A stretch of DNA of 64,000 bases from Flavobacteriaceae bacterium (lineage in GTDB: Bacteria; Bacteroidota; Bacteroidia; Flavobacteriales; Flavobacteriaceae), in contig CP031964.1 in assembly GCA_003443635.1 (NCBI GenBank), forward strand, positions 62,001 to 126,000. Reading direction: 5' to 3'. Shown piece after piece: positions 47,181 through 53,397 of the stretch; position 1 is the first letter of the stretch; the number at the start of each line of letters is the position of its first letter. A program made the position numbers and the translations under genes. The notes below the pieces were generated by a model. That model did not search any database, was not told where the DNA came from, and worked only from the letters and a program-made list of their open reading frames with translations.

Positions 47181-47609
47181 ATGAAACACTTTTTTTTAAC
47201 TGCTCTTATTAGTTTATTAATTTTTTCTTGTAGTGGTAGCGATGATGTAGATCCAAATTGCAATTTTCTTATTAACGCAGGCTTTAGTACTAGTATAAAT
47301 TTAAATTTACCACAGTTTAGTCAACTTCAATTTGCCAGTAATTCTGTATTTATTCCTAATGTTGGAAATCAAGGTGTTATTGTTACCAATATTGGAAGTG
47401 GTTTTTTTGCATGGGACGCTAGCGACCCTAATCATGAATTGAGATCATGTTCGAGGTTATCTATTTCTGGTTTAGAGGGTACTTGTGGTTGTGAAGAAGC
47501 TAATACTTATAGTTTAGTAAACGGGCAACCTCTTGATGCAGATCTACCTTGTGGTTTATTAAATTACAGAGTACAGCAAGAAGGAAGTACTTTATTTATT
47601 TCAAACTAA
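47181..47609 (+). CDS. Small Rieske-like lipoprotein (function unknown)
   Basis: A 142-residue predicted lipoprotein (MKHFFLTALISLLIFSC, lipid-accepting Cys17, then GSDDVDPN spacing). The mature part is rich in beta-strands with segments FAWDASDPNHELRSCSRLSI and GTCGCEEANTYSLVNGQPL, similar to flavobacterial proteins with a Rieske-like or ferredoxin-like core. The usual CPxxH-type cluster ligands are not complete, so metal binding is doubtful. It lies convergent to the TonB receptor gene. Confidence 0.7.
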   Translation: MKHFFLTALISLLIFSCSGSDDVDPNCNFLINAGFSTSINLNLPQFSQLQFASNSVFIPNVGNQGVIVTNIGSGFFAWDASDPNHELRSCSRLSISGLEGTCGCEEANTYSLVNGQPLDADLPCGLLNYRVQQEGSTLFISN

Positions 47610-47651: not shown

Positions 47652-49832
47652 TTAAAACTTAATTGTAGCTCCTAACAAGAAATTTATTCCTGCTTGAGGA
47701 TAAAACCCTGTTCCGTCAATAGTAGTTTGCCCACCAGATTGATTAGGTACATCAAAACTGAAGAAAAAACCATTGTTTTCATAAGTTTCGTCAAAGATAT
47801 TATTCACCTGCCCAGTTAAAATAATTGATTTAAATATAGAAAATCCACTAAAGACATATTGCACATTTAAATCATTAGTAAAATAACTATCTAATTTAGA
47901 GCTTTCAGCATCAATGTTTGCTAAATATTGTTCGCTTACAAATTTTGAAAAGAATGTAAAATTTAAATTGTCTGTTGGCTCATAGGTCAACGCATTACCA
48001 GCAACAAAATCTGGAGAGAATGAAATATTTGTTGTTCCTAAATTAACTAATTGCCCATCTCTTTGTGCCACAAAGTCTTTATTTTTATTTGTACTTAATG
48101 CTGCATTGGGTCTTATAGTAAATTTATCATTAACTCGAATTATTGCATCAACCTCTATACCTAACCTATAACTATTTCCACTGTTTTGACGAATAGGGAA
48201 TCCTACTTGATCGAGTTCACCTGTTAGTACTAATTGATTAGTAAAATCTAAATAATATATGTTTGTATTTAATTTAAAGCGTCTCTTATTTAAACGCCAT
48301 CCTAATTCAAAATCATTTAAACTTTCTGGTTCTGGATTTCCATTTTCAAAATCTACTCTTGCAGGCTCACGATTAGAACGCGCATACGAAAAATATAAAC
48401 TATTATTATCGTTTGCTTTAAATGTAATCCCAGCTTTAGGGTTGAAAAATGTATAATTTTCATTTACATCCAGTGGAACACTTCCAAATAATAATCCATC
48501 TGCTTTATAATCTATATTTCTAATTTGTGCATCTGCATAAAATGAAAATTGATTGTCGATCTTGTAAGTTGCTTTAGCGTATAAATTAAAATCTTTTTTA
48601 TCACTATTATTATCAAAAAATCGAGTAGGAAGTGTTGGTAATGGCGCAAGATCTGAGAATATAATTTCTCCAAATTGTTCACCATCATAGCGATTCCAGC
48701 CACCTCCAAAAATTGCGTTTAATCTATTCTTTTTGTAATTTATATTAAAAATTGTACCATAAAAATCACTATTTAAGTGTGATCGAGTCACTAAATCAGA
48801 GACTTCAATTGTTTGTCCTCCTGATTGAAATGAAGGTAATCTGTAAAATGCTAATGATGCTTCATCTATATATTGTTCAAAAAAACCTCTCCCATAAGTA
48901 TAATGAAAAGATATATTTCCTGTCCAATTTGGATTAAATCTATGTGTAAGGTGTAGTTGATAATGATCTTGCTTATAGTTATCTGTTTGATCTTCATAAA
49001 ACTGTTGGTTTCCATTACGATCAAAAAATAATCCTTCTGCATTGAAACGTCTGTCTGTAGTCAAAGTTGCAGCATCAACACCCGCAAATGATAAACCTGT
49101 AATCTCTTCTCCACCAAAAATTAAAGCTTTAATAAGTGTTTTATCATTTTTATAAACACCACTTAAAAAATAAGAGCTTAAATCTGAAAACGCTCTATCT
49201 ATATATCCATCTGACTCTATTCTTGATAAGCGCCCAGAAAATGCAAAATGATCATTTAAAAGGCCAGTTCCTAACTTAACTGTATGTTTCCTAGTATTAA
49301 AACTCCCAAAAGAGTTTGCAATTTCAGCAAATGGTTTTTCAGAAAGATTATCGGTTAAAACATTAATACTAGCTCCAAAAGCTCCGGCTCCATTTGTAGA
49401 TGTTCCTACCCCACGCTGCACTTGAATATTCTCTACAGAAGATGCAAAATCTTGAAGGTTTACCCAGAATACAGTTTGACTATCTGCATCGTTATAAGGA
49501 ATTCCGTTAAGTGTGACATTGATTCTAGAATTATCGGCTCCACGAATACGGATATCAGTATACCCAATTCCTGTTCCATCAAATGTAGTAGATACAACAG
49601 ATGGTAAAGAATTTAATAACACAGGTATGTCCTGCCCTAAATTTATTTTTTCTATTTGTTTTTTACCGATTTCTGAATAGGTAATCGGAGAATTTGTATT
49701 CACTCGAGATGACTTTACAATAACTTCTTCTAATTTCTCTACTTTGGTTGAGTCTTTCTGTGTTTTTTGTTGTTGTGCTCCAACACTCATTGATAATATT
49801 AAGAATGGTATAAAAAGAAATAAATTTTTCAT
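47652..49832 (-). CDS. TonB-dependent outer-membrane receptor, predicted thiamine-related transporter
   Basis: A 726-residue outer-membrane receptor. Signal peptide MKNLFLFIPFLILSMSVGAQ; then a plug domain at about 45-155 (VVSTTFDGTGIGYTDIRIRGADNSRINVTLNGIPYNDADSQTVFWVNLQDF) and a 22-strand beta-barrel ending with ...GATIKF. No carbohydrate-binding N-terminal domain (SusC type) is present. A TPP riboswitch in its leader makes thiamine or a thiamine precursor the likely substrate, as proposed for Bacteroidota OMR1 receptors (Rodionov and co-workers). The upstream genes pnuC and thiamine-binding protein support this. Repression by TPP is inferred from the riboswitch. Confidence 0.93.
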   Translation of the reverse strand: MKNLFLFIPFLILSMSVGAQQQKTQKDSTKVEKLEEVIVKSSRVNTNSPITYSEIGKKQIEKINLGQDIPVLLNSLPSVVSTTFDGTGIGYTDIRIRGADNSRINVTLNGIPYNDADSQTVFWVNLQDFASSVENIQVQRGVGTSTNGAGAFGASINVLTDNLSEKPFAEIANSFGSFNTRKHTVKLGTGLLNDHFAFSGRLSRIESDGYIDRAFSDLSSYFLSGVYKNDKTLIKALIFGGEEITGLSFAGVDAATLTTDRRFNAEGLFFDRNGNQQFYEDQTDNYKQDHYQLHLTHRFNPNWTGNISFHYTYGRGFFEQYIDEASLAFYRLPSFQSGGQTIEVSDLVTRSHLNSDFYGTIFNINYKKNRLNAIFGGGWNRYDGEQFGEIIFSDLAPLPTLPTRFFDNNSDKKDFNLYAKATYKIDNQFSFYADAQIRNIDYKADGLLFGSVPLDVNENYTFFNPKAGITFKANDNNSLYFSYARSNREPARVDFENGNPEPESLNDFELGWRLNKRRFKLNTNIYYLDFTNQLVLTGELDQVGFPIRQNSGNSYRLGIEVDAIIRVNDKFTIRPNAALSTNKNKDFVAQRDGQLVNLGTTNISFSPDFVAGNALTYEPTDNLNFTFFSKFVSEQYLANIDAESSKLDSYFTNDLNVQYVFSGFSIFKSIILTGQVNNIFDETYENNGFFFSFDVPNQSGGQTTIDGTGFYPQAGINFLLGATIKF

Positions 49833-49900
49833 CGCGATTAATAATTTAATCGAATAAAAAGAGGTAATTATTCTTTTAGTATTTTAAGCTTTTATTTTTT

Positions 49901-49978
49901 GTTTCCTAAACAGCATTATCTGTTCTAGGTTCAATGGGTGTGATCTCAGCCATTATTAATAGCACCCCTTTTGAGAAC
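49901..49978 (-). ncRNA. TPP riboswitch (THI element)
   Basis: Read on the minus strand, the conserved blocks appear in order: GGGGTGC, GGCTGAGATCACACCC, GAACCT, ACAGATAATGCTGT and TAGGAAAC. They match the thiamine-pyrophosphate aptamer: CUGAGA core, ACCC, GAACCUG and AUAAUGC(C). The outer stem P1 can form from GTTCTC (49978-49973) and GGAAAC (49906-49901) with one mismatch. It ends 68 bases before the TonB receptor ATG. No clear terminator stem lies between, so control may be translational or by a weak stem. Confidence 0.93.
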
Positions 49979-49981
49979 GCT

Positions 49982-49990
49982 GCAAAGATA
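49982..49990 (-). promoter_or_regulatory. Promoter -7 box driving the TPP riboswitch
   Basis: TATCTTTGC on the minus strand, directly before the aptamer. The predicted start is about 49976, so the RNA opens with the P1 stem of the riboswitch. Confidence 0.7.
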
Positions 49991-50037: not shown

Positions 50038-50442
50038 TTATTCCAAATTCGGTTTCTTTCTATTTGCTTTTTTATCTGATTGGAATCGTTTATTTTTTAT
50101 ACGCTTTTTTATAATTGCTCTTGGTATTTTGGTAGGGAATCTTTTTTTTTGAATAATTAACCCTTGTCTTATAATTTCTAAAAAACGTTTTTTTACAAGT
50201 TCTTTATTTTTATGTTGACTACGAGATTCATCGCACTGTAAAATAAGTATATGTTCTTTTGTTAATCTTGTTTTTAAAGTTTTTAGTAATTGTTGTTTTT
50301 CTTCTTTAGAAAAGGCTAATGACTCAGATAAATTAAACTGTAGTTCTATTTTTGAAGATACTTTATTTACGTGCTGACCTCCGCTTCCTGAACTCCGAAT
50401 AGCCTTAAATTTTAATTCTGATATTAATAATTCAGCATCCAC
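50038..50442 (-). CDS. arfB: Alternative ribosome-rescue factor ArfB (peptidyl-tRNA hydrolase)
   Basis: A 134-residue class I release-factor-like protein. GGQ (21-23) in RSSGSGGQHVNKVSSKIELQFNL catalyses hydrolysis of peptidyl-tRNA in stalled ribosomes. The C-terminal basic tail (KKRIKNKRFQSDKKANRKK) is of the kind that enters the mRNA channel in ArfB/YaeJ. No codon-recognition domain is present. It follows DUF4301 by one base and may be cotranscribed. Confidence 0.93.
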   Translation of the reverse strand: MDAELLISELKFKAIRSSGSGGQHVNKVSSKIELQFNLSESLAFSKEEKQQLLKTLKTRLTKEHILILQCDESRSQHKNKELVKKRFLEIIRQGLIIQKKRFPTKIPRAIIKKRIKNKRFQSDKKANRKKPNLE

Positions 50443-50443
50443 A

Positions 50444-51994
50444 TTAAGAGATTTGATGAGCAGGTTTTAATAAATCGTTTACTGTTTTTACAGGGTTAAA
50501 AGTAAGTAATGGTACTTCTACAAAAACAGTATTCCAATTTGCCATAGCTCCATTCCACAACCCGGGAAGTTCGAGAGCTTTTATATTCTTTCCTGTTTTT
50601 GTTTTCATCGTAATGAAAGCTGTTTTAGAATCTACAAATTTTGTTAAATCAAATGTTTTTCCTTTACAGTCTTTAATCCCACAAACAAGGTCTACTGGGT
50701 TAAAATGTGTTGCATTCTTAAAAATATTTTTTTGAAGTTTATTTTTTTTATCAACTTGAGCAGATTCTACAATCTGAAGCGAAGCTGTACCCATTTCGTC
50801 TTTTACCCAAAAAGGACCACCACCAGGTTCTCCTTCATTTTTAACCATTCCGCAAACACGTATAGGTCGATTCAGTTTTTCTTTTAAATACTCTACTTGA
50901 TATTTAGCAGAATATTTTTCGAACTCTGAACTAATTGATACATTTAACTGATTTGATAAAAATTCTGCAATCTCTATAAGTTCACTTTCTGATACATCAC
51001 TTTCCAATTGATTTAAAAACTGAAATGCTTTTGCTTGTATATCTAATAAAATTCCACCAAGTATCTTTTTATACCTAGCCACTTTATTTTTATATTTAGA
51101 AACTACTACATTATCTATATTTTTAATAAAAATAATGTCTGCATCTAAATCGTTTAAATTCTCTATTAAAGCGCCATGACCAGAAGGTCTAAATAACAAT
51201 TTACCATTACTATCTCTAAAAAACTTATTATCTGATGTAACTGCTATAGTTTCTGTCACTTCTTTTTGATAAGAAAATGACACATCATACTCAGTGTTTG
51301 TGCGTTCTTCTACATCTTCCTCTATGTGTCTAAATTCTTCATCAAATTTATGTTTATATTTTTCAGAAATTGTAAAATGTAAGCTAGCTTTATTATTTGG
51401 AGATGCATATAATGCCGCTTCAAATAAATGCTCTTCAAACGCTGTACAAACTGTGTTTTTATATTTATGAAATGGTAATAATCCTTTAGGAGAAAAGCTA
51501 TAATTTAACCGATCTTCTTTAAGTATTGTTCTTACAAATTCTAAACGACGTTGATCTTCTGATAAATCATTAAAATTATCTATTACTCTGTGTAATTTAA
51601 AAACTACTTCTTCAAAAAATGGCAATTTCTCTAATCCTACAAAGAACACAGATAACTCATTAGCTCTATGTTTATTTATATAAGAGTTTATGCTTTCTTT
51701 TTTAGAATCATAGCTTTCTAAGAATTCAAATAAAAATTTGAACATTCTTGTAGCTGCACCCGAAGCAGGAACAAATTTTACAACCTTTTTTTCTGAGCAC
51801 TTACCATCAAATAAAGCTCTATAATATTCTTTTTCAGTTTCTTTTAAGCTTATAATACCATTATCAATAGTAGCAGCTTCTTTTAAGTTTATATATGGGA
51901 CTCCTGTTCTGAAAAGTTCTATTTGAGATTCAACTTTTTTAACTGTTAACCCTTTACTTTCTATTTGTTGTATATCTTCTTTTGTAAACTTCAA
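50444..51994 (-). CDS. DUF4301 protein
   Basis: A 516-residue cytosolic protein of the uncharacterised Bacteroidota family DUF4301. Recognisable blocks: FVPASGAATRMFKFLFEFL (resembling the nucleotide-sugar pyrophosphorylase glycine-rich loop, PASGAATRM), LLFRPSGHGALIENLNDLDADIIFIKNIDNVV, and VCGMVKNEGEPGGGPFWVKD. The loop and the D-I-I-F-I-K-N-I-D-N segment suggest a nucleotidyltransferase fold. Substrate unknown. Its start overlaps the NadR-like gene by 4 bases, so it belongs to that operon. Confidence 0.8.
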   Translation of the reverse strand: MKFTKEDIQQIESKGLTVKKVESQIELFRTGVPYINLKEAATIDNGIISLKETEKEYYRALFDGKCSEKKVVKFVPASGAATRMFKFLFEFLESYDSKKESINSYINKHRANELSVFFVGLEKLPFFEEVVFKLHRVIDNFNDLSEDQRRLEFVRTILKEDRLNYSFSPKGLLPFHKYKNTVCTAFEEHLFEAALYASPNNKASLHFTISEKYKHKFDEEFRHIEEDVEERTNTEYDVSFSYQKEVTETIAVTSDNKFFRDSNGKLLFRPSGHGALIENLNDLDADIIFIKNIDNVVVSKYKNKVARYKKILGGILLDIQAKAFQFLNQLESDVSESELIEIAEFLSNQLNVSISSEFEKYSAKYQVEYLKEKLNRPIRVCGMVKNEGEPGGGPFWVKDEMGTASLQIVESAQVDKKNKLQKNIFKNATHFNPVDLVCGIKDCKGKTFDLTKFVDSKTAFITMKTKTGKNIKALELPGLWNGAMANWNTVFVEVPLLTFNPVKTVNDLLKPAHQIS

Positions 51995-52560
51995 GTCTTA
52001 AGTTTTATTAGGTCATTAATATGTTTTATAGCTTTTTTAAATCGCTCTTCTTTATTTCCTTTAAGTAAAATATATGGTTTATTATATTTTATAAGTGTAG
52101 ATTCAAAAGCTTTAAACATTTGATCTCTTTCATTTGGTTTATCACGTAAATCGTCTACTTCCCAAGGCGTATCAATATAGGTTAAAAAATATAAATTGTA
52201 AGTATTTTCTATAGCATATTTGCTCAAGATTTTATCACATTTTTCAGTATAATATACTTCAGAATAAACTTTGGTTTCTAATAAGTTGGTATCACATATA
52301 AGTATTTTATTTGCATCTTGAACTAGTTTATTCTCTAATTTCATCTGACCAATAGCAATAGGCAGTAAATCTTTTGGTTCACAAATTTTTTGTTCTAAAT
52401 TCCATTTATTTTGGAGGTATTCTCGTGCATATTCAGGTACCCAATTTGTATTGTAGTATTCTGCTAATTGTTTAGAAAGTGTTGTTTTACCAGTAGATTC
52501 TGGTCCAAACAATACAATTTTTAGGCAATTTGAAGGCTGCTGTTTAAGTTTTTCTTCCAC
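51991..52560 (-). CDS. NadR-like P-loop ATPase/kinase (AAA_28)
   Basis: A 189-residue kinase-like protein with P-loop GPESTGKTT (19-27), then EYAREYL and ILICDTNLLETKVYSEVYY, as in the ribosylnicotinamide kinase domain of NadR. NadR itself has an extra nucleotidyltransferase domain, which is absent here. The start appears to be GTG at 52560, 40 bases inside pnuC. Next to PnuC it could phosphorylate the imported nucleoside and so trap it. In a thiamine context the substrate might be thiamine; nicotinamide riboside is the alternative. Confidence 0.82.
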   Translation of the reverse strand: MEEKLKQQPSNCLKIVLFGPESTGKTTLSKQLAEYYNTNWVPEYAREYLQNKWNLEQKICEPKDLLPIAIGQMKLENKLVQDANKILICDTNLLETKVYSEVYYTEKCDKILSKYAIENTYNLYFLTYIDTPWEVDDLRDKPNERDQMFKAFESTLIKYNKPYILLKGNKEERFKKAIKHINDLIKLKT

Positions 52561-53153
52561 GCTAAATATCCCATTATTGAAATAACAATAAATATAAGGT
52601 ATAACAAACTACTTAATGTATAGCCTTTAATGAAATATAAGGGTACACTAATAATGTTTCCTACCAATAAATACAGCCAATTTTCGACTTTACGTTTAGC
52701 TAACATCCACATACCTCCAAAAAAGATCATAGTAGTTAAAGTATCAACATAAGCCGTCCAACTTGTCCATTTCTCAAAAAAGTTATAAATCATAACTACT
52801 CCTACTAAAGATATTAATCCTATTAATACTGCAATACTATGATCTTTTTTAGAAGCTTTTGAAATAGGTGTGTAACTTTCTGGCGATATTTTACGTGTCC
52901 ATATATACCATCCATAAATACTCATTATAAAATAATAGCTTTGAATAATCATGTCTCCTAACAATGTCCATTGCCAAAGTAAATACACGAAAATCATGGT
53001 GCTAATAATACCTGTTGGATATACCCAAATACTATTCCGCCAAGAGCATAATGCTGAGGTTATTCCAAATAAAACAGCAATAGTTTCCATAACAATTTGA
53101 TAAGTCTCATATTCTGCGTATTGACTAAAAAGAAAATCAAAAACTTGGTTCAT
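52521..53153 (-). CDS. pnuC: PnuC-family vitamin/nucleoside transporter
   Basis: A 210-residue membrane protein with seven or so helices and aromatic-rich loops (WRNSIWVYPTGIISTMIFVYLLWQWTLLGDM, IYGWYIWTRK, WLYLLVGNIISVPLYFIKG). The family mediates facilitated uptake of nicotinamide riboside (PnuC) or thiamine (PnuT), with the substrate trapped by phosphorylation. ATG 53153 is preferred over TTG 53177. It overlaps the thiamine-binding gene by 17 bases and the NadR-like gene by 40 bases, so all three are tightly coupled. The neighbours favour thiamine. Confidence 0.88.
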   Translation of the reverse strand: MNQVFDFLFSQYAEYETYQIVMETIAVLFGITSALCSWRNSIWVYPTGIISTMIFVYLLWQWTLLGDMIIQSYYFIMSIYGWYIWTRKISPESYTPISKASKKDHSIAVLIGLISLVGVVMIYNFFEKWTSWTAYVDTLTTMIFFGGMWMLAKRKVENWLYLLVGNIISVPLYFIKGYTLSSLLYLIFIVISIMGYLAWKKNLNSSLQIA

Positions 53154-53397
53154 AATTGCTACGATCGCTTTTAACAATTTTTAAATTTACGATCACATTA
53201 TCCTGAGCATCAAATGCTATTTTAATCTCTTCTGTTAAAAATTGCATTAATGCATCATAATCTCCATAAATTTGAGTGCTCAACGGGTTTTCTATAACTG
53301 TAAATTCTGATAATCTCAACTTTTTTATAAATGTTTTGATATGATTTTCATAATCATTTTGAAGTGGCATTAAGGTTAATTCTACTGATATTTTCAT
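53137..53397 (-). CDS. Thiamine-binding protein, MTH1187/YkoF-like (DUF77)
   Basis: An 86-residue protein of the MTH1187 family: KISVELTLMPLQNDYENHIKTFIKKL, FTVIENPLSTQIYGDYDALMQFLTEEI, VNLKIVKSDRSNYEP. Family members form tetramers with a ferredoxin-like fold; YkoF relatives bind thiamine at the interface. No signal peptide is present. It lies at the head of the PnuC/NadR-like gene group and supports thiamine as substrate. Confidence 0.9.
   Translation of the reverse strand: MKISVELTLMPLQNDYENHIKTFIKKLRLSEFTVIENPLSTQIYGDYDALMQFLTEEIKIAFDAQDNVIVNLKIVKSDRSNYEPSF

Follow-up and report, generated by a model that had tools for sequence, protein, structure and literature searches.

A stand-alone NadR-type kinase beside a PnuC-family transporter as a candidate thiamine kinase in Flavobacteriia and other Bacteroidota

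What is the function of a kinase that resembles half of NadR when it is encoded in a cluster that ends with a TonB-dependent receptor under a thiamine pyrophosphate (TPP) riboswitch? This question is raised by three genes on the minus strand (53397 to 51991) of the window, a stretch of 64,000 nucleotides from contig CP031964.1 of a Flavobacteriaceae bacterium. The trio encodes a small YkoF/MTH1187-like protein, a PnuC-family transporter, and a stand-alone NadR-kinase-like P-loop kinase, and is followed on its 3′ side, in order, by DUF4301, ArfB, the riboswitch, and its receptor. The features of the locus are as follows.

53137 to 53397, minus strand: YkoF/MTH1187-like putative thiamine-binding protein, 86 aa (PF01910; PDB 2ibo)
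52521 to 53177, minus strand: PnuC/PnuT-family inner-membrane transporter, 218 aa from TTG, probable start ATG 53153 (PF04973)
51991 to 52560, minus strand: stand-alone NadR-RNK-like P-loop kinase, candidate thiamine kinase, 189 aa (PF13521)
50444 to 51994, minus strand: DUF4301 protein, 516 aa (PF14134, 732 bits)
50038 to 50442, minus strand: ArfB peptidyl-tRNA hydrolase (NF006718, 118 bits, above cut-off)
49983 to 49990, minus strand: TATCTTTG, directly before the aptamer, resembling the Bacteroidetes -7 promoter element (TAnnTTTG)
49886 to 49979, minus strand: TPP riboswitch aptamer (RF00059)
47652 to 49832, minus strand: TonB-dependent receptor under the TPP riboswitch, putative outer-membrane thiamine receptor (PF00593 and PF07715)

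A sequence-only reading of this DNA had described three genes with 17- and 40-base overlaps, encoding a thiamine-binding-type protein, PnuC, and a NadR-like kinase, on the same strand as a riboswitch receptor further downstream, and this description stands. The three genes are real and conserved, and the overlaps are as described: that of the small protein with PnuC spans 17 bases with the ATG at 53153 taken as the start of PnuC, that of PnuC (stop 52521) with the kinase (GTG 52560) spans 40 bases, and the kinase and DUF4301 genes overlap by 4 bases. The gene order is kept in dozens of relatives, and the receptor and aptamer lie downstream of the trio on the minus strand. Profile searches bear out the named families, with 163.9 bits for PnuC (PF04973, NMN_transporter), 142 bits for the kinase (PF13521, AAA_28), and a weak pass for the small protein (PF01910, Thiamine_BP; 26.1 bits, cut-off 24.9). 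The small protein scores below the cut-off of TIGR00106 (MTH1187; 16.2 bits against 54.7); its best solved relative is SP2199 (PDB 2ibo, E 3.4e-7), and in relatives its gene still directly precedes that of PnuC or the kinase. TM0486 and MTH1187 are named as thiamine-binding proteins in a title (Dermoun 2010) cited in PMC6393860. They belong to the same family as the small protein, for which the match is weak and thiamine binding is putative. The ArfB neighbor is probably unrelated to the thiamine system. Elsewhere in the window, a putative lipoprotein of 142 aa (47181 to 47609), convergent to the receptor and with no Pfam or NCBIfam match, is kept near the receptor in most Flavobacteriales loci, and an S16-Flavobacteria ribosomal protein leader (RF03138; 4396 to 4430) scores above its gathering score.

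The riboswitch retains all core motifs of the TPP aptamer (44.5 bits, E 1.2e-7), and is missed at the gathering threshold because its score is below Rfam's 54.3. Most receptor-linked TPP aptamers in relatives score similarly low. In flavobacteria these aptamers have a short or shifted P1 helix, and annotation by threshold misses many of them. The riboswitch is directly upstream of the receptor gene and no TPP riboswitch is present upstream of the trio at this locus; control by the riboswitch is predicted to extend to the receptor only. A TAnnTTTG element, resembling the Bacteroidetes -7 promoter consensus, directly precedes the aptamer here, and most of 34 aptamers in the comparison have a similar one, which makes a separate promoter for the receptor probable.

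The relationship of the kinase to NadR has been probed using profiles, a structural model, and a phylogeny. In Pfam and NCBIfam profiles the protein consists of the kinase domain alone and the N-terminal NMN adenylyltransferase domain is absent. NadR is its best NCBIfam match, covering the kinase half only, and the TIGR01526 (NadR) score of 101.7 bits is far from the cut-off of 341. The AlphaFold2 model (pLDDT 95.3) is closest in Foldseek to NadR kinase domains (TM 0.84 with 8x7f) and then to thymidylate kinases, and the nearest solved relatives are nicotinamide riboside (NR) kinases. In the kinase tree, for which the bootstrap is incompletely settled, 95 stand-alone Bacteroidota kinases form one clade (support 98/96) that includes no bifunctional NadR. 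The PnuC-linked kinases of Pseudomonas and Sphingomonas fall outside this clade. Pseudomonas-, Sphingomonas-, and gammaproteobacterial PnuC-kinase pairs were found at five loci (L193, L194, L195, L197, and L198), all outside the Bacteroidota clade and with no TPP riboswitch nearby, and are possibly NR systems; the Pseudomonas and Sphingomonas pairs were discounted as support, being outside the clade and having no TPP riboswitch at gathering score nearby. Attempts to read substrate specificity from motifs were also set aside, as no residue cleanly splits the stand-alone kinases from NadR: the DGLR lid motif of NadR tends to become D-x-LR(D/E)xP in stand-alone kinases, with exceptions on both sides. 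At L006, a second kinase-like match in the genome proved on inspection to be an unrelated P-loop protein.

The gene content of the source genome bears on the need for such an enzyme. The genome is complete (a single 3.35-Mb contig), and statements of presence and absence across it rest on profile searches. These searches identified ThiL along with a complete operon for thiamine biosynthesis; they gave no match in the complete genome to thiamine pyrophosphokinase (TPK; PF04263, controls positive) or to bifunctional NadR, the NMN adenylyltransferase-kinase fusion. There are two TPP riboswitches, the receptor copy and one before the complete thi operon. With ThiL present and TPK absent, imported thiamine therefore needs a kinase other than TPK. 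We consider it probable, with some confidence, that the trio makes up the inner-membrane part of a system for salvaging thiamine. In the proposed pathway, the riboswitch-controlled receptor would carry thiamine across the outer membrane, and the PnuC-family protein (PnuT) would let thiamine levels on the two sides of the inner membrane even out. The stand-alone kinase would then trap thiamine by converting it to thiamine monophosphate, from which ThiL would make TPP; the small YkoF/MTH1187-like protein is a probable cytosolic binder of thiamine. What we infer from the observed gene content and conserved order, riboswitch linkage, exclusion of TPK, retention of ThiL, and separate kinase clade is that transporter and kinase are specific for thiamine, that the kinase yields the monophosphate, and that the small protein has the role given here.

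Gene neighborhoods in relatives link the kinase to thiamine genes. The usual order in Flavobacteriales is SFP-PcrB-small protein-PnuC-kinase-(DUF4301-ArfB)-[TPP]-receptor. The anticipated co-occurrence with the riboswitch receptor was borne out by comparative genomics. Of 101 relatives with the kinase, 70 have a TPP riboswitch no more than 12 kb from it, where random placement would give about 0.9; gene order shared by descent is part of this count. In 19 relatives the distance is 500 bp or less. The kinase is still beside the riboswitch receptor at loci that PnuC has left (L061, L064, and L073), and the same proximity is seen in Cytophagales (L126, L163, L168, L180, and L185). Furthermore, TPK occupies the position of the kinase after PnuC at five loci (L045, L143, L145, L209, and L210), and orthologues of the receptor adjoin either the kinase or PnuC-TPK. 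In a PnuC tree obtained from a short search with SH-aLRT support only, the PnuC of the trio groups with PnuC proteins whose genes immediately follow TPP riboswitches (98), TPK-linked PnuC branches at the base of this group (91), and Hymenobacter-like partners fall on the NadR-linked side. In the window, PnuC shares a cluster with the riboswitch receptor and is not directly behind the riboswitch. PnuC is downstream of a TPP-riboswitch receptor in G018 (L046), where a 2OG-Fe(II) oxygenase-like gene (L046:4893-5597) lies between the two. In five genomes a second PnuC, itself immediately behind a TPP riboswitch, is followed by an acyl-CoA-dehydrogenase-like protein of about 340 aa (L042:6691-7704, L043:738-1772, L047:6513-7532, L054:6454-7479, and L077:5993-7021).

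The distribution of the kinase was surveyed in 120 relatives (98 complete) alongside TPK, PnuC, ThiL, and ThiE, a gene set that excludes ThiK-type kinases, YjbQ (a substitute for ThiE), and ThiC as well as the genes for NAD synthesis. Strong kinase matches are present in 101 of the 120, compared to 15 for TPK, 114 for PnuC, 111 for ThiL above cut-off, and 30 for strong ThiE matches. The complete relatives divide into 80 with the kinase and without TPK, 11 with TPK and without the kinase, 2 with both, and 5 with neither. Of the 72 complete relatives that lack ThiE, the kinase is present in 67 and TPK in 5 (one has both and one neither). The single ThiE-less exception with neither enzyme is the 0.3-Mb genome G087; the other complete relatives lacking both (G021, G081, G083, and G084) all contain ThiE. 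The sequence-only reading had asked whether the trio goes with loss of thiamine biosynthesis genes. It does so in the relatives, where nearly all complete ThiE-less genomes carry the kinase, but not in the source genome, which keeps its full thi operon. Among the ThiE-less relatives counted here, ThiL is kept in 63 of the 66 that have the kinase and lack TPK (the remaining three are drafts), and consequently something must supply thiamine monophosphate in these kinase-dependent genomes. Because relatives share ancestry, Fisher tests on such counts overstate independence, and independent kinase-less lineages are the better unit: complete genomes contain about nine, all with TPK or ThiE, compared to roughly a fifth of kinase-containing genomes.

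The separation of kinase and TPK extends through the wider phylum, with one exception. Across 393 genomes the two co-occur in 23, of which 20 belong to a single Flavobacterium-like genus (TPK in 25 of 25, kinase in 20 of 25); outside this genus the overlap is only 3 of 83. The overlapping kinase of G466 groups with bifunctional NadR in the tree, and the 324-residue frame of that in G305 suggests that it too is NadR. About 17 distant matches outside the class are not clearly of the same family, and none of those included in the tree belongs to the clade.

Several observations were counted against a role in thiamine metabolism, namely the NR-kinase-like fold, the coexistence of TPK and kinase in the Flavobacterium-like genus, the lack of a riboswitch of the trio's own, the placement of Hymenobacter-like PnuC, and the fusion of DUF4301 to the kinase. 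The homology and fold shared with the NR kinase half of NadR, together with NR transport being the best-known function of PnuC proteins, raise the possibility that the trio salvages NR: PnuC would import NR and the kinase would make NMN, which would reach NAD via NadD or after deamidation, with the closeness to thiamine genes reflecting inherited order. A NadD-like protein is encoded in the genome (L007). However, the genome has no NMN adenylyltransferase-kinase fusion, and an NR system leaves unexplained the exclusion of TPK, the near-universal presence of the kinase in ThiE-less genomes, and the retention of ThiL. A conserved association of the trio with NAD salvage, which would speak against thiamine, was not seen at the loci examined; seven genomes give matches to the stand-alone kinase as well as to a longer NadR-like protein, and in the two examined (G002 and G167) the longer protein is a bifunctional NadR in a separate PnuC operon (L075 and L125). 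NR salvage is therefore considered unlikely, and the comparative pattern favors a kinase that would convert thiamine to thiamine monophosphate and work with ThiL.

Two further explanations are less probable still. The replacement of TPK at the same operon position, and five kinase-containing genomes with no ThiL above cut-off, would be consistent with a pyrophosphokinase that makes TPP directly, leaving ThiL dispensable for salvage. Yet the genomes lacking ThiL are drafts, nearly all ThiE-less kinase genomes keep ThiL, small ones included, and it is the TPK-only f16 genomes (0.6 Mb) that have no ThiL above cut-off. NadR-type kinases, moreover, transfer one phosphate, and a direct route to TPP appears very unlikely. 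The kinase could instead pair with DUF4301 as a kinase and nucleotidyltransferase acting on another substrate, the thiamine linkage being secondary. The two are fused in the Flavobacterium-like genus and a few others (L109, L111, L115, L116, L158, and L159), and the confident AlphaFold2 model of DUF4301 resembles UDP-glucose and UDP-GlcNAc pyrophosphorylases (a nucleotidyltransferase-like fold), suggesting that it may be an unrecognized nucleotidyltransferase. Basal Flavobacteriales and Cytophagales nevertheless have no DUF4301 beside the kinase while the riboswitch receptor remains adjacent, and this explanation does not account for the exclusion of TPK; we regard it as similarly improbable.

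The proposed thiamine salvage system can be compared with known ones. In Bacteroides, thiamine salvage proceeds via OMthi-PnuT-Tnr3, where PnuT is paired with the TPK tnr3 (Costliow and Degnan 2017, PMC5613172). That system similarly comprises a TonB receptor with a TPP riboswitch and a PnuC-family transporter adjoined by a phosphorylating enzyme. In contrast, the enzyme here is a NadR-type P-loop kinase, after which ThiL would be needed to form TPP, the riboswitch is on the receptor only, and there are an extra YkoF/MTH1187-like protein and DUF4301. Rodionov 2002 is reportedly a further source for OMthi-PnuT-Tnr3. The locus is most likely a variant of receptor-PnuT-TPK with a non-orthologous kinase. 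It shares with PnuC-NadR NR uptake a PnuC-family transporter adjoining an AAA_28 kinase and the principle of facilitated diffusion and trapping, but the kinase has no NMN adenylyltransferase domain, belongs to another clade, and is linked to thiamine rather than NAD genes. The reaction proposed for the kinase, thiamine to thiamine monophosphate followed by ThiL, is that of E. coli ThiK (YcfN), an aminoglycoside-phosphotransferase-type kinase unlike the P-loop enzyme here. The literature searched, which covered few subscription journals, contained no previous report of a thiamine kinase resembling NadR.

The suggestion that the kinase is a new type of thiamine kinase thus gains from its riboswitch linkage and from the exclusion of TPK outside one genus, and is tempered by the absence of a riboswitch on the trio itself and by the full thi operon of the source genome. 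It is likely that the stand-alone NadR-type kinases widespread in Bacteroidota are a third, unrecognized thiamine kinase beside ThiK and TPK, and the usual route to thiamine monophosphate for ThiL in thiamine-auxotrophic Flavobacteriia and some Cytophagales. Flavobacteria are abundant marine consumers of vitamin B1 (PMC8552899). ThiE is missing in about three quarters of the complete relatives, most of which also lack TPK, such that none of the known enzymes surveyed feeds ThiL in them. If the proposal is correct, it would account for the use of external B1 by bacteria that have neither B1 synthesis nor the usual B1-activating enzyme, would correct the NAD-related annotation of a large kinase family and its PnuC partners, and would make the kinase a marker gene for B1 dependence.
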